A DNA stretch of 64,000 nucleotides from Qipengyuania soli. GTDB taxonomy: Bacteria > Pseudomonadota > Alphaproteobacteria > Sphingomonadales > Sphingomonadaceae. Each line of letters starts with the position of its first letter. The first letter of the stretch is position 1. The notes beneath the pieces are model-generated. The model was not told the origin of the DNA. It did no database searches and worked only from the letters and a program-made list of their open reading frames with translations. Below, one piece after another: positions 6,234 to 36,750 of the stretch. The translations under genes were made by a program, and so were the position numbers. Where the stretch lies: contig NZ_CP064654.1 of the NCBI RefSeq assembly GCF_015529805.1, positions 2,542,001 to 2,606,000 of the forward strand. The letters are read 5' to 3'.

Positions 6234-7052
6234 ATGATCCACAAGATACTCAAGGGCCTCGCGCCGCTGGCCGCTCTCGCAGGAGCGGCAATGGTTTCCG
6301 GTTGCGATGGCGTGAACATCCAGATCGGCGATAGCGACGCGGTCCCGCTGGCCGAACTCGACATGAGCGGTCCCGCGCCCAAGGAACTCGTGGTCGCCGG
6401 CCCGGACAAGGTTGTCGTGCGCGACGGCGACAAGCTCGACATCGACGTGTCCGGCGATGCCGACGCGGTCGACGCGCTGCGCTTCTCGATCGACGACGGT
6501 ACGCTCGCCATCTCGCGCGAGAAGAACAGCTGGAAGGACAAGGGCTCGGCCACCGTCACCGTCACCCTGCCCGAGCTCAATGGCCTGGTGGTCGCCGGAT
6601 CCGGCGACATCGACGTCGAGAAGATGACCAACAAGGCCGAAGTCACCATTGCCGGTTCGGGCCGCGCCAAGGTTGCCGATCTCACTGCCGAGAAATTCGA
6701 CATGACCATCGCCGGATCGGGCGACTTCGAGGCAGCAGGCGCAGTCGACAATCTCGACATGACCATTGCCGGATCGGGCCGCGCCAGAATGGCCGGGCTG
6801 AAGGTCGAAAAGGCCGACATATCGGTTGCCGGATCGGGCGAGGCGGAATTCTCGTCCGATGGCAAGGTCGATGCCTCGATCGTGGGTTCGGGTCGCGTGA
6901 CCGTCCTTGGTCGCGCAAACTGCACCGTGAGCGCGGTCGGCTCGGGCAAGCTCAATTGCAAGCCCGCCAAGAGCAGTGAGGAAGCTGCGCCTGCACCGGA
7001 AGCGCCCGAGGCGCCCAAGGCACCGAAGGCTCCCAAGCCCCCCAAGGGCTAA
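6234..7052 (+). CDS. GIN-domain (DUF2807) lipoprotein (272 aa)
   Basis: The signal peptide ends in a lipobox (LAALAGAAMVSGC), so a lipid-anchored envelope protein is expected. The body is a DUF2807 putative auto-transporter adhesin head domain made of repeated strands on the pattern VAGSGDID, IAGSGRAKV, IAGSGDFEA, IAGSGRARM, VAGSGEAEF and VGSGRVTV, as expected for a right-handed beta-helix. The C-terminus is a proline/alanine/lysine-rich tail of APEAPKAPK type, probably unstructured. The ATG at 6234 is the only start that gives the signal peptide. The function is unknown; adhesion is only the family name, not shown. Confidence 0.82.
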   Translation: MIHKILKGLAPLAALAGAAMVSGCDGVNIQIGDSDAVPLAELDMSGPAPKELVVAGPDKVVVRDGDKLDIDVSGDADAVDALRFSIDDGTLAISREKNSWKDKGSATVTVTLPELNGLVVAGSGDIDVEKMTNKAEVTIAGSGRAKVADLTAEKFDMTIAGSGDFEAAGAVDNLDMTIAGSGRARMAGLKVEKADISVAGSGEAEFSSDGKVDASIVGSGRVTVLGRANCTVSAVGSGKLNCKPAKSSEEAAPAPEAPEAPKAPKAPKPPKG

Positions 7053-13208: not shown

Positions 13209-14174
13209 TCAAATATCGCCGCCGGTCAGGCGTTGACAGATGAGGTCAAGCTGGTCGAGGGTGCGATAGCGAATGGTGACCGTGCCCGTGTTGGGCGAAT
13301 CCTCGGTTTTGATGCGGACCTGCATCCCGAGGAACTCCTCGAGGTGGCCCTGCACAGCCGAGATATCAGCATCGTTCTCGCCTGATCGCGAGGGAGCCGG
13401 TTTGCGGGGTGCCACAGGCTCCCTGCCGACCGCCCGCGCCAGCTTTTCGATCTCCCGCACCGACAGTTTCTGTTCGACGGCGCGACGGGCGAGCGATGAG
13501 GCTTCCTCGTTCCCGATCAGCGCGCGCGCGTGCCCCATGGACAATGCGCCATCTGCAAGCAGGGCAAGCACGTCGTCCGGCAGGGCGAGAAGGCGCTGGA
13601 AGTTCGCCACATGGCTGCGCGACTTGTCGACAAGCTTGGCGATCTCCGCCTGGGTCATGCCCTCATCATCGGCAAGCTTTTGATAAGCCCGCGCTTCTTC
13701 GAGCGGATTGAGGTCTTCGCGCTGGAGGTTCTCGATCAGCGCCAGGGCCATGACCTCGCGCTGGTCGAGGTCACGCACGACAGCCGGGATCTCGTGCAGG
13801 CGCGCCCGCTGTGCCGCGCGCCAGCGACGCTCGCCGGCTACCAGCTGGTAGCGACCAGCACCCATGGGGCGGACAATAATGGGCTGGATGACGCCCCGAG
13901 CCGCGATCGAGGAGGCCAGTTCGTCCAAGGCTTCCTCGCGGAAATGCGTGCGCGGCTGACCTGGGAGCGGCGAAATGTCGGCCACCGGGATGGACGCAAG
14001 GCCAGTGGTGACAATCTTCGGACCACTCGCTGCAGATAGGGACTGGCCGACCTCGGTTGCGTCCTGGCGAACCAGCGGCTCCTCGCGACGTGTCTCGCCA
14101 AGGAGCGCACCCAGGCCCTTGCCGAGCTTCTTCTTGCGATCGATCATTCGTGCGGGACTCGTTGCGTCGCTCAT
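13209..14174 (-). CDS. parB: Chromosome partitioning protein ParB (321 aa)
   Basis: Binds parS, spreads along DNA as a CTP-dependent clamp and stimulates ParA. The N-terminus KKKLGKGLGALLG is the usual ParA-contact peptide. The CTPase domain shows PLPGQPRTHF, IQPIIVRP and GERRWRAAQRA. A helix-turn-helix follows in MTQAEIAKLVDKSRSHVANF. The C-terminal dimerisation part is GTVTIRYRTLDQLDLICQRL. Its ATG overlaps the parA stop (ATGA), so translation is probably coupled. Three parS sites lie 0.8-3.3 kb upstream in the same operon. Confidence 0.97.
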   Translation of the reverse strand: MSDATSPARMIDRKKKLGKGLGALLGETRREEPLVRQDATEVGQSLSAASGPKIVTTGLASIPVADISPLPGQPRTHFREEALDELASSIAARGVIQPIIVRPMGAGRYQLVAGERRWRAAQRARLHEIPAVVRDLDQREVMALALIENLQREDLNPLEEARAYQKLADDEGMTQAEIAKLVDKSRSHVANFQRLLALPDDVLALLADGALSMGHARALIGNEEASSLARRAVEQKLSVREIEKLARAVGREPVAPRKPAPSRSGENDADISAVQGHLEEFLGMQVRIKTEDSPNTGTVTIRYRTLDQLDLICQRLTGGDI

Positions 14175-14962
14175 GCGGCCTTCCTCTTTTCTGACAACCT
14201 GCCGATCAATTCGCGCGCGAGTCCGATGTAGGCACGGCTACCAGGGCAATTGTGATCATAGACGAGCGCCGGCATCCCATGGCTCGGCGCTTCGGAAAGA
14301 CGCACATTTCGCGGAATGACGTTCTCGAACACGAGGTTGCCCAGGCAATCGCGCACATCGTCGGCCACCTGGTCGGTGAGGCGGTTGCGCCGGTCGAACA
14401 TCGTCAGGACTACGCCGACGATACCCAGATTTGCGTTGAATCCCTGCTGGATACGCTCGACGGTCTGGAGGAGCTGGCTCAGGCCCTCGAGGGCGAAGAA
14501 TTCGCACTGCAGCGGCACCAACAGCGTATCGGCAGCGCATAGGGCATTGAGTGTCAGCAGCCCGAGTGAAGGTGGGCAGTCGATGAAACATACATCGTAG
14601 CCGGCGAAACCATCCTTGCCTTGTTGCGCAAGAGCCGAGGTGAGACGCGAGGTGCGGTCATCAACCGAAACAAGCTCGACCTCGGCACCGGAAAGGTCCT
14701 GCGTGGCCGTAACGATATCCAATCCGGGAATATCAGTGGGTTGGACACATTCGGCGAGCGTCGCCTGGTCGAGGAGCAAGTCGTAGCTGGTGTTCACCCG
14801 TGCAGCAGCTTCGATACCCAGTCCCGTCGACGCATTACCCTGAGGATCGAGGTCGATCAGGAGTGTTTTCCACCCCGTCGCCGCCATTGCTGTCGCAATA
14901 TTGATGGCCGTGGTGGTCTTGCCCACCCCACCCTTCTGATTCGCGATCGCAACGGTGATCAT
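14171..14962 (-). CDS. parA: Chromosome partitioning ATPase ParA (263 aa)
   Basis: A Walker-type ATPase that binds the nucleoid and draws ParB-parS complexes apart. The deviant Walker A is KGGVGKTT at residues 10-17, and the second lysine-side motif is LIDLDPQGN. Walker B-like FIDCPPSLG and the nucleoid-binding C-terminus follow. The ATG at 14960-14962 overlaps the rsmG stop by ATGA. A start 15 nt upstream (MERKV) is possible but breaks the coupling. Order mnmE-mnmG-rsmG-parA-parB is the common alphaproteobacterial arrangement. Confidence 0.97.
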   Translation of the reverse strand: MITVAIANQKGGVGKTTTAINIATAMAATGWKTLLIDLDPQGNASTGLGIEAAARVNTSYDLLLDQATLAECVQPTDIPGLDIVTATQDLSGAEVELVSVDDRTSRLTSALAQQGKDGFAGYDVCFIDCPPSLGLLTLNALCAADTLLVPLQCEFFALEGLSQLLQTVERIQQGFNANLGIVGVVLTMFDRRNRLTDQVADDVRDCLGNLVFENVIPRNVRLSEAPSHGMPALVYDHNCPGSRAYIGLARELIGRLSEKRKAA

Positions 14963-15591
14963 GACTTTTCGCTCCATTTGCCCGTTCCGACCACGATTCC
15001 GGCCTCGTTGTCGGTGAGCGATTGTTCCACGTGAAACATCTTGCGCCCGAATTTTGATAGCGCAGCCACTTCTTGGGCCGCGGACCGCCCTTTCGGCAAC
15101 ACCCAGCGGGTGCGACTTGTGGAGAAGCGTGCGGATAATGCGAGCAATCGATCCAGGGGAGCAAACGCGCGGGCTGTGATGACGCCCGCCTCGAATGTCT
15201 CGACCTGTTCGAGCCGCGCTCCCTCGATTCGACAGTTGTCCAACTGCATCTTGGACTTCATGCGCTCTAGCCAATCGATCCGGCGCTTGCGGGATTCTAC
15301 AAGAATTACAGGTATTTCCGGCCTCAGTGCCGCGATTACCAGCCCCGGGAAACCGGCGCCACTTCCCAAGTCCATCCACGGCCGCGTTGAGCGCTCGGCA
15401 TGGCCGATGAGTTGGGCGGAATCGGCAATGTGACGCTGCCAGACACACTCGAGCGAATTTTTCGCAACGAGGTTTTGCAGCACGTTCTCCTGCCGAAGTT
15501 CGTCCTCGAGCATCTGCAAAGGTTCGAGCGATTCTTTTCCGCCGATCTCCGCCACGTAGGCACGAGCGGATTCCTCGTCTCGGATCCTCAC
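14959..15591 (-). CDS. rsmG: 16S rRNA (guanine527-N7)-methyltransferase (210 aa)
   Basis: Uses S-adenosylmethionine to methylate G527 in the 530 loop of 16S rRNA. The SAM-binding motif is [12 protein letters not shown], and [14 protein letters not shown] and [10 protein letters not shown] are family blocks. The start is GTG at 15589-15591, overlapping the mnmG stop (GTGA). A perfect parS site (15023-15038) lies inside the 3' part of the coding sequence and encodes the residues FHVEQ. Confidence 0.95.
15023..15038. promoter_or_regulatory. parS: parS site 1 (inside rsmG)
   Basis: TGTTCCACGTGAAACA matches the bacterial parS consensus TGTTNCACGTGNAACA at every position. It lies in the rsmG coding region, 61 bp upstream of the parA start and 0.85 kb upstream of the parB start. 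Confidence 0.93.
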
Positions 15592-17441
15592 GACGCCGTG
15601 ACCTGTCCGCGGCGGACGTGTATCAAAACGGCGGCCAATGCGGCGGGAGTAATGCCCTGCACTCGGGAGGCAGCGGCGATCGTCCCGGGGCGAGCTCTCG
15701 ACAGCTTCTCGACCATTTCGTTAGAAAGGCCCGGAACCGATGAATAGGAAAAGTCGGAAGGAAGCCGCAGAAGTTCGCTGGCACGGAGTTCCGCCAACTC
15801 TGACTCCTGCCTCGCGAGGTAGGGTGCGTAGAAGGCGTCCTCAGCCAATTCGACCGTAAGCGCATCAAGCGGATCGAGCCCCGCAAGAACGCTCGCGATT
15901 TGTCCCACGTCGACATGGCCCCCGGAAAGCCATTCCCTCGCCGGCCGCTCACCCGCATCGCGTTTCACGTGAAACCCTGCGTCGATAAGCTCGCGGGCGT
16001 GTATCGGTGCACTAAGAAGCGCTTCGAGTTCATCGCGGCGCGCCGCCCGCTCGGTGAACCAGGCCTTCCTCTCCGCACCCGCCAATCCGGCATCGATCGC
16101 CGCTTGGGTAAGGCGGGTGTCGGCATTGCTGGCCCGCAATCGCAGGCGATACTCCGCGCGTGAAGTCAGCATTCGATAAGGCTCGGTGATCCCCTGTAGA
16201 GTCAAATCGTCCAGCATGACTGCAATATAGGAATTGGCGCGATCAAGAATCGGCGCCTCCTTGCCGATTACAGACGCCGCTGCCTGCATCCCAGCGACGA
16301 GTCCCTGCGCCGCCGCCTCTTCATAGCCAGTGGTGCCATTGATCTGTCCGGCACAGTACAGGCCCGGGACCGCATGAAGCTCGAGTGTCGCTTTCAGCGC
16401 TCGTGGATCGATATGATCGTATTCCACCGCATATCCAGGGACGACCATCTCGACCTGCTCCAGACCCCTCATCGCCCGAAGCATGCCGAGTTGTACGTCG
16501 ACCGGCAGCGAGGTGGAAATTCCGTTGGGATAGACCAGATGCGTGTCAAGTCCCTCGGGCTCGAGGAAAACCTGGTGGCCGTCGCGATCCCCGAACCGAT
16601 GGATCTTGTCTTCGATCGAGGGGCAATACCGCGGCCCCGCCGCCCCGATTGCGCCAGAGAAAAGAGGAGAACGGTCGAGATTGGCGCGAATGATGTCATG
16701 CGCCCGCTGGTTGGTGCGGGTGATCGCGCAGAAGACCTGCGGGTTATCCCTCCGCACGGTGAGGGAGGACATCGTCCAATTCCCATCGTCGGAAGGCTGC
16801 TCGTCGAGACCTGCCCAATCAATGGTCCTCCCATCCAGGCGGGGAGGCGTGCCCGTCTTCAGGCGACCCATGGGCAGGTCTGCGCCGCGCAATTGCCCGG
16901 CAAGACGATGTGCGGCATTTTCGCCGATGCGCCCGCCCTCGAAACGCTCTTCCCCGCGGAACAGTACGCCTCCAAGGAAGGTGCCCGTGCACAGGACGAC
17001 CGCTCGCGAAGTGAGGCGAGTTCCGTCGGCAAGTTCCAGACCGTTAACGCGATCGCCCGCGAAGACCATTGCCGCAGCTTCCCCCTCGATGATCGAAAGG
17101 TTACTTTGTCGCGCCACCTGGGCCTGCACCGAAGCCTTGAACAGTCTGCGGTCCGCCTGCACCCTTGGGCCCCAGACCGCACTGCCCTTCGATTGGTTGA
17201 GCATGCGGTAATGGATCGCTCCGGCATCGGCTGCACGAGCGATGATCCCGTCGAGCGCGTCGACCTCGCGAACGAGGTGTCCCTTGCCAAGCCCACCGAT
17301 TGCCGGGTTGCAGCTCATCGCGCCTATTGCCGACGCGTCGAAAGTCACAAGCGCGGTACTCGCACCCATCCTGGCCGCAGCACAGGCAGCCTCGACCCCG
17401 GCATGTCCGCCGCCGACTATGATCACGTCGAATTCGTGCAT
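15588..17441 (-). CDS. mnmG: tRNA uridine-5-carboxymethylaminomethyl modification enzyme MnmG (617 aa)
   Basis: The FAD-dependent half of the MnmE-MnmG complex that installs (carboxymethyl)aminomethyl groups on wobble U34. The dinucleotide fold is at the N-terminus, [15 protein letters not shown]. Further family blocks are [52 protein letters not shown] and [20 protein letters not shown]. The ATG at 17439-17441 gives the canonical N-terminus; longer in-frame starts are unlikely. mnmE, its partner, lies directly upstream. A second parS-like palindrome lies within the gene. Confidence 0.97.
15961..15976. promoter_or_regulatory. parS: parS site 2 (inside mnmG, 14 of 16)
   Basis: CGTTTCACGTGAAACC keeps the 14-bp palindrome GTTTCACGTGAAAC but has C instead of T/A at the two outer positions. 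On the reverse strand it encodes the MnmG residues FHVKR. Confidence 0.8.
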
Positions 17442-17485: not shown

Positions 17486-17501
17486 TGTTCCACGTGGAAC
17501 A
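17486..17501. promoter_or_regulatory. parS: parS site 3 (between mnmE and mnmG)
   Basis: TGTTCCACGTGGAACA is a perfect 16-bp palindrome matching the parS consensus. It lies in the short gap between mnmE and mnmG and abuts the mnmE stop codon at 17502-17504. Confidence 0.95.
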
Positions 17502-24322: not shown

Positions 24323-25348
24323 TCACCCCTCGAAACCGCGGACAGTCGAAATCAGCCGCTCGACGTGTTCGATGGGCGTGCGCCGGTCGATGCCGTGACC
24401 GAGGTTGAAGACATGCGGCCGGCCGGCAAAGGCACGCAGGATCGTCGCCACGCGCTTTTCGAGCTCGGGGCTTCCTGAAAGCAGCAGCAACGGATCGAGA
24501 TTGCCCTGTACCGGCATGTCCGCAGGCAGTTCGCGGGCAACCCAGTCCGGATCGAGCGTCTCGTCCACCCCCACGGCATGCACCCCGGTGTCGCGCGCAT
24601 AGGCGGGTAGCTTCTCGCCCGAGCCCTTTGGAAAGCCGATGACCGGAGTATCCGGGTGGCGCTCGCGCAGTGCCGCTACGATGGCAGCATTGGGTGCGAT
24701 GACCCAGCGTTCGAACTGATCGGGAGCCAGGCTGCCGGCCCAACTGTCGAACAGTTGCACCGCTTCCGCACCGGCTTCGATCTGGCCGGAGAGATAGGTG
24801 ATGGTCTGCTCGACGATGGCGTCGATGATCGCTTTAAAGGCGCCGGGATCGCGATAGGCCATGGCTCGCGCGTCGTGTTGGTCGCGGCTGCCCTCGCCCG
24901 CCACCATATAGGTAGCGACGGTCCAGGGGCTGCCCGCAAAGCCAAGCATAGTTACGCCTTCGGGCAGACGTTGGCGGCACAGGCGGACCGTCTGGTAGAT
25001 CGGCTCGTAGCGCTTGGTCGCCGAACACAGCGTTTCGAGCGCTTCATCGACAAGCTTGGGAGCAAGCTTGGGCCCCTCGCCCGCCTCGAACCACAGGTCC
25101 TGGCCCATCGCATGCGGCACGATCAGGATGTCGGAAAACAGGATCGCCCCGTCAAAGCCGAAGCGGTCGATCGGCTGCAACGTGATCTCGCACGCCGCCT
25201 CACTGTCGTAAGCCATCTCAAGGAATCCGCCCTTCTGCTCCCTCAGGGCACGGTATTCGGGGAGGTAACGCCCGGCCTGGCGCATGAGCCACATGGGCAC
25301 CCGCGAGGAGCGCTTTCCGTTCAGCGTATCGAGAAGGAGACCGGGCAT
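24323..25348 (-). CDS. hemE: Uroporphyrinogen decarboxylase (341 aa)
   Basis: Removes the four acetate carboxyls of uroporphyrinogen III to give coproporphyrinogen III. The signature RVPMWLMRQAGRYLPEYR is at the N-terminus; FSDILIVPHAMG, GFAGSPWTVATYM, LFDSWAG and FNLGHGIDRRTPIEHV follow. The ATG at 25346-25348 is chosen; the frame continues upstream, but that stretch is the origin region. It reads away from the origin candidate. Confidence 0.97.
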   Translation of the reverse strand: MPGLLLDTLNGKRSSRVPMWLMRQAGRYLPEYRALREQKGGFLEMAYDSEAACEITLQPIDRFGFDGAILFSDILIVPHAMGQDLWFEAGEGPKLAPKLVDEALETLCSATKRYEPIYQTVRLCRQRLPEGVTMLGFAGSPWTVATYMVAGEGSRDQHDARAMAYRDPGAFKAIIDAIVEQTITYLSGQIEAGAEAVQLFDSWAGSLAPDQFERWVIAPNAAIVAALRERHPDTPVIGFPKGSGEKLPAYARDTGVHAVGVDETLDPDWVARELPADMPVQGNLDPLLLLSGSPELEKRVATILRAFAGRPHVFNLGHGIDRRTPIEHVERLISTVRGFEG

Positions 25349-25630
25349 ACGGGAAGAGTCCAATCCAATATATTTATTTAGATAAGAGTTGATGGAGTCT
25401 GTTGGCCCTGTGGATTTCAGGGATAACCAGCCCCTGCCCGAATTCTCCCGCAAAGCAAAGGGTCGAGCGGATATGCGACTCGCGGCTTGGCTTGAGTCGA
25501 GTCAAACTTATCCCTGTTGTCCCCAGCCTGTCCAAAACCCGGCCGACCTGTGCGGGAATCGCCTGCTGAAAGACTCGTTGTGGGGAGGGAAGTTCCTCCC
25601 GAACTTGTCGGCAGGCCTATCCCGTGGTTT
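25349..25630. other. oriC: Probable chromosomal replication origin (oriC), hemE-ppsR intergenic region
   Basis: A 282-bp non-coding gap between divergent hemE and ppsR, the position of the mapped origins of Caulobacter and several other alphaproteobacteria. It holds a 19-bp A/T tract (25367-25385) usable for unwinding. DnaA-box relatives are AAATCCACA (reverse strand, 25409-25417), inverted copies of TTATCCCTG (25418-25426 reverse, 25508-25516 forward) and, at the edge, TTCTCCACA (25641-25649). Two TCCCCA hexamers in opposite orientation (25520-25525 and 25581-25586) resemble the weak W-box described for Caulobacter. No perfect TTATCCACA is present. Confidence 0.8.
25367..25385. other. A/T-rich tract, candidate DNA unwinding element
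   Basis: AATATATTTATTTAGATAA has a single G in 19 bp, while the surroundings are near 60 % GC or higher. It lies 19 bp upstream of the hemE start and to the left of all DnaA-box-like sequences. Confidence 0.6.
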
Positions 25631-26509
25631 ATGCCGGTGCTTCTCCACAGGGTGCCGGAGCCTCTTATTTCCAACCGCGTCCATCTCCACCTGTTGTCAG
25701 ACTCCACCGGCGAAACGCTCGAGATGCTGGCCAAGGCCGCGCTCGCGCAATTCGAGGATGCGGACGTCATGCGCCATTTCTGGCCGATGGTTCGAAGCCG
25801 CCAGCATCTCGAACGTATTGCCCCGGAGCTCAAGGCCAACCCGGGCCTTGTCCTCTTCACGTTGGTCAATCCCGAAACGCGCGACCGGCTGGAAGAGATC
25901 TGCCGCCAGCTTGGACTGCCCGCAGTCCCCATACTCGATCGCGTGACCGAGGCACTCGAAAAGGCGCTGGGGCAGGAAGCGCATGGCAAGCCCGGTCGCC
26001 AGCATGCGATGGACCAGGCCTATTTCAAGCGTGTCGAGGCGATCCAGTTCACCATCGCCCATGATGACGGCGTCGGGTGGGAGAACTGGGAGGAGGCGGA
26101 TATCGTCCTCGCAGGCGTGTCGCGCAGCTCGAAGACGCCGACCAGCATTTACCTGGCCAATCGCGGCTACAAGGTCGCCAACATCCCGTTGGTGGTCGAA
26201 AGCCCGCCACCGCCCAAGCTGTTCGAGCTCAAGAACCCGATGGTGGTCGGCCTGACCACCGCGCCGGAGCGGTTGGTACAAGTGCGCCGCAACCGCCTCC
26301 TGAGCCTCAACGAGGAGCGCACCACCGACTATGCCGACCAGGAAAAGGTCAAGGCCGAGGTTGCCTTCGCTCGGCGCATGTTTGCCGACAACGGCTGGGC
26401 GGTGATCGATGTCACTCGCCGCTCGATCGAGGAAACCGCCGCTGCGGTGATCCGACTCTACAACGAGCGCGAGACGCGCGGGACGACACAAGGGGCGAAG
26501 CCGATATGA
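25631..26509 (+). CDS. ppsR: Pyruvate, phosphate dikinase/PEP synthase regulatory protein, DUF299 (292 aa)
   Basis: A bifunctional kinase/pyrophosphorylase that switches PEP synthase or PPDK off and on using ADP and phosphate. The family start [16 protein letters not shown] is followed by the P-loop-like [23 protein letters not shown] and NIPLVVE. This is the RP001-type gene flanking alphaproteobacterial origins. The start is uncertain: ATG 25631 gives [11 protein letters not shown] before the conserved region, and GTG 25652 would be shorter and leave the DnaA-box-like TTCTCCACA outside the gene. Its stop overlaps the maf start (ATGA). Confidence 0.92.
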
Positions 26510-36218: not shown

Positions 36219-36698
36219 TCAGGACTTCTTGCCGGCGATGCGGGCGATCTCGGCCTTGACCAGTTCCTCGACCATGGCGGGAAGATTGTCATCGAGCCAT
36301 TGCGCCAGCATCGGGCGAAGCATTTCGCGCACCAGTCCTTCGAGCGATGTTTCGCCGGAACGGACGATCTGCGGCGCCTTGCCGGGCTGCGCGAGCATGG
36401 CGAGGGCGGCAAAGTTCTGCCGCATCGCTTCGCGCGTGTCGCCGCGGGTGAGGGCGTCCTCGTCATCCGCCGCGTCGGCACATTCAGGTTCGGCGTGCGC
36501 GTGCTCCATCGCGTAGTCGGAATCGAGTTCCAGGACCTCGATGGCCTCCTCCTCGTCGGCAGGTTCGACGACGTCTTCGCGCTCCGCGGTTGCGCGACGA
36601 CGGCGTTCGGCGATCATGCCGTCGCGATTGTCGCGCGCAATGACCTTCTTGATCGAGTCAAGGATCTCTTCGACCGACGGTTCACCCGGTTGCTGCAT
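36219..36698 (-). CDS. popZ: DUF2497 protein, PopZ-type polar organiser (159 aa)
   Basis: The N-terminus PSVEEILDSIKKVIARDN and the C-terminal helix block LEGLVREMLRPMLAQWLDDNLPAMVEELV are the two conserved parts of DUF2497. The middle is acidic and low in order (DEEEAIEVLELDSD, PECADAADDEDA). In Caulobacter, PopZ forms a polar condensate that anchors ParB-parS. The order pcm-tolC-popZ here matches other alphaproteobacteria, where valS usually follows; here an S9 peptidase gene follows. Function in this organism is inferred. Confidence 0.8.
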   Translation of the reverse strand: MQQPGEPSVEEILDSIKKVIARDNRDGMIAERRRRATAEREDVVEPADEEEAIEVLELDSDYAMEHAHAEPECADAADDEDALTRGDTREAMRQNFAALAMLAQPGKAPQIVRSGETSLEGLVREMLRPMLAQWLDDNLPAMVEELVKAEIARIAGKKS

Positions 36699-36750
36699 CG
36701 TGCCTCACTGCCCCTGTCCCGAATCGGGACCACCGATTCGCCTGAAGCCC

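Follow-up and report, generated by a model that had tools for sequence, protein, structure and literature searches.

The region between the divergently transcribed hemE and ppsR genes (positions 25349-25666; Table 1) is almost certainly the chromosomal origin of replication (oriC). This reading follows from the agreement of a strand switch, a dif-like site opposite, adjacent parS-like sites, the least stable DNA segment, conserved DnaA boxes and class-wide synteny, and the same lines support an earlier sequence-only reading, which had placed oriC between these two genes. The window, that is, the whole 64-kb stretch of DNA analysed here, covers positions 2542001-2606000 of a closed chromosome of 2,910,044 bp, and among the best 80 of 583 confirmed relatives the named ones closest to it are Qipengyuania and Erythrobacter, with ppsR at most 90% identical. 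Positions are those of the window unless the chromosome is named.

Table 1. Predicted features of the hemE-ppsR region and its surroundings (window positions)
Feature	Position	Strand	Basis
predicted oriC, hemE-ppsR intergenic region	25349..25666		synteny and footprint in 79 relatives; strand switch
hemE (uroporphyrinogen decarboxylase)	24323..25348	-	PF01208, E=1e-112
ppsR / DUF299 (PEP synthase regulatory protein)	25667..26509	+	PF03618, E=1.2e-95; likely AUU start
AT-rich segment of lowest stability, candidate duplex unwinding element	25354..25405		nearest-neighbour energies
left arm: TTATCCCTG + AAATCCACA, head-to-tail DnaA-type 9-mers	25409..25426	-	sequence match and 80-row alignment
right arm: TTATCCCTG + TTGTCCCCA, with W-box-type TCCCCA at 25520	25508..25525	+	sequence match and alignment
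TCCCCA hexamer	25581..25586	-	sequence match
candidate DnaA box TTCTCCACA, 1 mismatch	25641..25649	+	commonest form, 26 of 80 aligned rows
seven GANTC sites	25356..25576		starts 25356, 25395, 25477, 25494, 25499, 25556, 25572
parS-like site	15023..15038		1 mismatch
parS-like site	15961..15976		2 mismatches
parS-like site	17486..17501		2 mismatches
parB (presumed)	13209..14174	-	ORF translation
parA (presumed), 5' end approximate	14171..14956	-	ORF with ANQKGGVGKTTT motif

Chromosomal setting of the hemE-ppsR gap

The 282-bp non-coding gap described earlier at 25349-25630, between divergent hemE and the DUF299 gene, is real. The gene order around it had been taken from open reading frames, and Pfam bears out the names ppsR, hemE, hemJ (UPF0093), rho and mnmE, with maf, aroE, coaE and dnaQ standing as ORF readings. 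A tRNA-Ser call by ARAGORN at 25721-25811 was taken as false: it falls within ppsR, and nowhere in the window did an Rfam family reach its gathering score. The divergent arrangement was found in 79 of the 80 named loci, with the exception (L094) near a contig end, in all 70 loci of the order, own genome included, and in 63 of 68 loci of the class, and the gap has the location of hemE-type alphaproteobacterial origins, with divergent hemE on one side and the RP001/DUF299 (ppsR) gene on the other. The order set held 70 of 113 matching genomes (the 30 best, own genome among them, and 40 from other families) and the class set 68 of 134 (28 of the 30 best and 40 picked, the other two best being already in the order set). 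In the same family, the four genomes sampled from genus g12 (G083, G087, G091 and G097), nearly complete, all gave no ppsR match.

Strand composition was sampled over 37% of the chromosome (1.064 Mb). Cumulative GC skew, which had been proposed as a check, could be computed but is shallow: the sampled curve has a broad minimum whose lowest point on this flank is ~2.41 Mb of the chromosome, 157 kb from the gap, and within the 304 kb around the gap it is lowest between -1 and +7 kb, a value almost reached at -105 kb as well. It was therefore rejected as sole locator of the origin. For the polar octamer GGGNAGGG, a switch placed in the gap accounts for the strand of 195 of 226 sites from a finer sampling, and a switch at +5 to +16 kb fits equally well. 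Across 40 spaced stretches of the chromosome (800 kb), plus-strand copies of the octamer predominate from ~2.6 Mb through zero to 1.10 Mb and minus-strand copies from 1.17 to ~2.56 Mb, although between 1.97 and 2.5 Mb sites are few and hardly biased; the bias is weak, too, in the 304 kb around the gap (36 of 53 on the expected strand). Its switch at the terminus is perfect, with 14 of 14 sites on the plus strand followed by 15 of 15 on the minus strand, between chromosome positions 1134639 and 1137164. A dif-like site lies at 1135942, 49% of the chromosome from the gap, and an origin in the gap with this terminus gives replichores of 1.43 and 1.48 Mb. Among the 17 single-contig genomes of the order, 11 have a dif-like match, at 47-50% of the rounded genome length from ppsR in nine and off-centre in two (G068, 31%; G053, 20%).

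Octamers trained more than 150 kb away place their minimum at +7.6 to +10.9 kb from the gap, where the score is about 11 log units below its value in the gap itself, these units being inflated by overlapping octamers. An origin at the corresponding +8.5-kb place (window ~33-36.4 kb), which composition allows, was put aside because this place is mostly coding; it has no comparable box cluster, and a GANTC cluster near it (~36520-36735) lies in ORFs too. Composition therefore gives a strand switch with dif opposite and a resolution of about 10-16 kb, and it is other lines that single out the gap. The dnaA gene lies at chromosome position 2140753, 426 kb from the gap, in agreement with the statement in PMC8116508 that dnaA is not conserved near the origin in the order of the window. 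An origin at dnaA was rejected in view of this distance and the lack of a strand switch there.

Partition sites lie beside the gap. Five places match parS with at most three mismatches; the three with at most two sit 8-10 kb left of the gap, and the other two (three mismatches) lie elsewhere. Next to these parS-like sites are two ORFs which we take to be parA and parB. Every one of the 17 single-contig genomes of the order has at least one parS match within ~14 kb of ppsR, the distance in G015 spanning the contig end, if circular, and several of them also have parS matches elsewhere. A parABS system thus appears near the predicted origin, parS by pattern and parAB by ORF reading alone. Close to a parS-like site, two DnaA-type boxes 12 bp apart (TTCTCCACA and TTATCCGCA, minus strand) occupy 15118-15138 inside an rsmG-type ORF.

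Architecture of the gap and the start of ppsR

By nearest-neighbour energies, no 40-bp stretch of the window is less stable than the one from 25354 and no 60-bp stretch less stable than the one from 25346, and the 25-bp stretch from 25362 is the second least stable; 24 A/T in 30 positions of this AT-rich segment ties for the window maximum. The segment, at the hemE end of the gap, is a candidate duplex unwinding element as judged by predicted stability alone. A 19-bp A/T tract, AATATATTTATTTAGATAA, had been reported in the gap and is there, although it contains one G.

All sequences named in the sequence-only reading occur in the window, and weak DnaA boxes lie on both strands as it had claimed; we amend their layout to two inverted two-box arms with a third site, TTCTCCACA, downstream. 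AAATCCACA is at 25409-25417 (minus), TTATCCCTG occurs twice, at 25418-25426 (minus) and 25508-25516 (plus), and TCCCCA hexamers begin at 25520 (plus) and 25581 (minus). Taken alone, TTATCCCTG is three mismatches from TTATCCACA; it matters because each copy pairs head-to-tail with a second box (AAATCCACA or TTGTCCCCA). The proposed box TTCTCCACA is present as well, but beyond the end of the gap at 25630: with a ppsR start at ATG 25631 it belongs to the ppsR ORF, and with a start at 25667 it belongs to the gap (25349-25666).

In the window alone, boxes are only modestly dense, with four of at most two mismatches in ~320 bp at the gap, which ties with 13603 as the densest place among the 63 such boxes of the 64 kb; near the gap a single box has at most one mismatch and none has zero. 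The cluster is weak here and strong over the 79 relatives, where the density per kb in the gap (with 40 bp added) exceeds that of the flanks 44-fold for boxes with at most one mismatch (94 boxes in gaps, 54 in flanks) and 7.5-fold for those with at most two, and where 65 of 79 have at least one gap box of at most one mismatch. Near-perfect-pattern box pairs within 300 bp were absent from the 1.064 Mb sampled, gap included. In the alignment of 80 gaps, the conserved blocks are the AT-rich stretch, GTTGGCCCTGTGGA, GACTC at 25477, the TTATCCC arm, CTTGTCGG, CCCGTGGTTTAT and TCCACA. Within the arms TGTGGA (25409-25414) is invariant across the 80 rows, the remainder is variable among relatives and TTATCCC is not universal. 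Covariation of the two arms was dropped, as the commonest pairs show no clear co-change. Before ppsR, CTTGTCGG and CCCGTGGTTTAT (25601-25635, conserved over the 80 aligned rows) may be a ppsR promoter or a protein site.

These features bear on whether the gap is only a divergent promoter shared by hemE and ppsR, with the origin nearby, for example 5-16 kb to the right or at parS. Composition alone suits the gap and the +5 to +16 kb interval alike, and by eye the conserved TTGTC ... GTTTAT pair ahead of ppsR resembles a promoter, but the enrichment of DnaA boxes in the gap across relatives, the presence there of the least stable DNA of the window, the mostly coding nature of the +8.5-kb place and published predictions that put the sphingomonad origin here (PMC4741004) make this explanation highly improbable. 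Taking the gap as oriC, we propose that DnaA would load on the two inverted arms and on TTCTCCACA, that the resulting complex would melt the AT-rich stretch, and that two forks would then leave bidirectionally; the weak boxes may tie firing to the level of DnaA-ATP.

The predicted oriC ends at 25630 instead of 25666 if ppsR starts at ATG 25631. In the closest relatives, ppsR appears to start at AUU, AUC or AUA, and its start in the window is likely the AUU at 25667, with the ORF open upstream through ATG 25631. With this start, the non-coding region would be 318 bp long and would include TTCTCCACA. The start analysis kept 31 close and 123 other loci, 23 of 177 having been dropped without an anchor match; the close group comprised the 25 best-matching named loci, five of six same-genus genomes and the window, and one of the 123 others (L156) is the window's own locus again. 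At the codon five before an 11-residue stretch, all 31 close loci have ATC (19), ATT (11) or ATA (1), the codons preceding it vary freely, and in 76 of the 123 other loci the codon after this position is ATG, GTG or TTG. The mean pairing energy with the 16S tail is -6.4 at the ATC/ATT/ATA codon versus -3.1 at the closest standard start upstream of it (n=30), -3.6 for ATG-start relatives (n=66) and -3.0 for random places; the Shine-Dalgarno match at the non-AUG codon is stronger than in AUG-using relatives. One close locus (L069) has an in-frame stop and no ATG, GTG or TTG ahead of the conserved part. Among the loci that rank next, Q. vulgaris (L073) has ATT and L074 has ATA at the same position, with no standard codon next, and Q. 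marisflavi (L072) has GTG one codon later; the non-AUG pattern therefore does not hold throughout the species that bear the name Qipengyuania.

Alternatively, these codons could encode an isoleucine that is conserved within a variable N-terminal extension; the excess of codons other than ATC (12 of 31 versus 22%, P=0.027) separates the two readings only weakly. Publicly predicted PpsR proteins have scattered lengths: the 20 closest hits span 261 to 351 residues, and some of them come from short contigs. The loci with a putative non-AUG ppsR start are L047-L071, L073, L074, L146, L148, L157, L162 and L164, together with the window (25631-25670).

GANTC sites in the gap

The gap holds seven sites for GANTC, the methylation target of CcrM, in 282 bp (24.8 per kb), which the sequence-only reading had overlooked. 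A plain 282-bp scan, which replaced a between-gene density because the gene caller swallowed the gap, ranks it as the second densest of six places with at least five GANTC per 282 bp in the 1.064 Mb sampled. Other dense clusters off the origin lie at chromosome positions 1981984 (eight per 282 bp), 2521933 (six) and 1232 (six), in loci L035 (from 17734), L131 (at its end) and L002. Each of the seven sites is kept in 24-25 of 25 close relatives, against a mean of 37% for the other 218 5-mers of the gap (P=1e-4, merely a guide as relatives are not independent). In the 54 more distant relatives the sites are kept, in order, in 9, 32, 54, 25, 12, 2 and 15, and the one at 25477 alone is kept in 79 of 79. 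Over the 79 relatives GANTC reaches 17.7 per kb in the gap versus 1.8 around it, with at least three sites in 68, and the cluster is conserved at the origin mainly in close relatives. We propose, with lower confidence than for the steps above, that the seven sites would turn hemimethylated once the origin has fired, and that they may in this way influence either the following round or the promoters of hemE and ppsR.

In E. coli, methylation by Dam, read by SeqA, gates re-initiation. CcrM methylation of the GANTC cluster might gate re-initiation at oriC in the same manner, as the density and retention of the sites would suggest, together with a CcrM-type ORF with a RAMA domain at C1:550888 and the lack of a CtrA site in the gap; TTAA-N7-TTAA is found in none of 70 order loci, the window's included, and in eight of 63 class loci. 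CtrA is dispensable in Sphingomonas melonis (PMC8116508), and overexpression of CcrM leads to extra chromosomes in Caulobacter (PMC3973325). We nevertheless consider such a gate unlikely. Dependence of the origin GANTC on CcrM was rejected after a test on 63 class loci, in which the cluster does not follow the enzyme: gap GANTC is no lower in the seven without a RAMA match than in the 56 with one (7.2 versus 5.9 per kb; P=0.46 on the GANTC excess over the flank). One of these seven genomes (G252) has no CcrM-like match, another (G210) matches the methylase part well and the other five give weak partial matches. Family f8 of the same order has a RAMA match in 16 of 16 genomes examined yet few gap GANTC (1.2 per kb), and among the 54 more distant relatives all but one of the seven sites persist in no more than 2-32. 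Deletion of ccrM leaves initiation unchanged in Caulobacter (PMC3973325), depletion or excess of CcrM in Agrobacterium altered ori2 but not the DnaA-dependent ori1 (PMC11514494), and GANTC is generally richer between genes. We regard as decidedly unlikely the broader proposal that, in a Qipengyuania-type oriC without a CtrA site, CcrM methylation of the dense, conserved GANTC array took over the re-initiation brake, as a counterpart of Dam/SeqA that alphaproteobacteria evolved independently at a DnaA-dependent origin.

The sites may instead serve transcription, through methylation-dependent control of the GcrA type at the hemE promoter, the ppsR promoter or both, a reading we hold to be possible though doubtful. 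GcrA binds methylated GANTC promoters in Caulobacter (PMC8116508), and divergent intergenic regions of this genome are GANTC-rich, with 3.4 per kb over 39 regions (each 150-600 bp long) against an overall density of 1.4 per kb, a rough comparison as the crude gene caller behind it over-extended ORFs and merged this gap. However, the density in the gap far exceeds this equally rough divergent-promoter mean, and the sites occur throughout the gap, both between the arms and on either side of them.

Judged by titles and the beginnings of abstracts, GANTC clusters at sphingomonad origins were not the subject of any publication listed. GANTC in the Caulobacter origin (PMC3973325) and in repABC origins (PMC6090056) is already published, and hemimethylation has been proposed to stop over-initiation at repABC origins (PMC11514494, PMC6090056), ori2 among them (PMC11514494). 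A conserved GANTC array without CtrA sites makes the re-initiation brake of sphingomonads directly testable.

Comparison with known origins

An origin of the Erythrobacteraceae type, fixed by several independent lines, can be used for copy-number, gene-dosage and cell-cycle work, and its location is useful as dnaA is not near the origin in this group. Cori, the origin of Caulobacter crescentus, reportedly lies between hemE and an RP001-type gene. The analogy with Cori, drawn in the sequence-only reading, holds in location, in weak boxes, in the TCCCCA hexamers (W-box, PMC4285127) and, we add, in the presence of several GANTC (PMC3973325). It fails in that the gap has neither a TTAA-N7-TTAA CtrA site nor the G-box TGATCCACA, copies of which occur in the window only at 6235 and 59200.

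As in the origin clusters of methyltransferase motifs (Dam GATC and others; Blow 2016), the motif of a presumed solitary-type enzyme clusters here at a conserved origin; unlike them, the cluster shows no dependence on the enzyme. The part of PMC4752239 on such clusters names GATC, TTAA, CTCGAG and CATG/CTAG, and not GANTC. Agrobacterium ori2 (repABC) likewise has GANTC in the origin but is RepC-dependent and not DnaA-dependent, unlike what we propose for the hemE-ppsR gap, and ori1 is described as having no CcrM response (PMC11514494).

Among sphingomonads, oriC has been predicted near hemE for Sphingopyxis granuli TFA and for most Sphingomonadaceae in DoriC (PMC4741004), and Ori-Finder places the origin of Novosphingobium PP1Y at hemE (PMC4059872). 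The passages of PMC4741004 on these predictions do not mention a GANTC cluster; they describe the TFA origin, as here, beside hemE, with DnaA boxes and a putative unwinding element. The hemE location of the origin has thus already been predicted for sphingomonads, and what is new is better support for it: to the TFA prediction, our analysis adds the strand switch, dif, parS and a footprint in 79 relatives.
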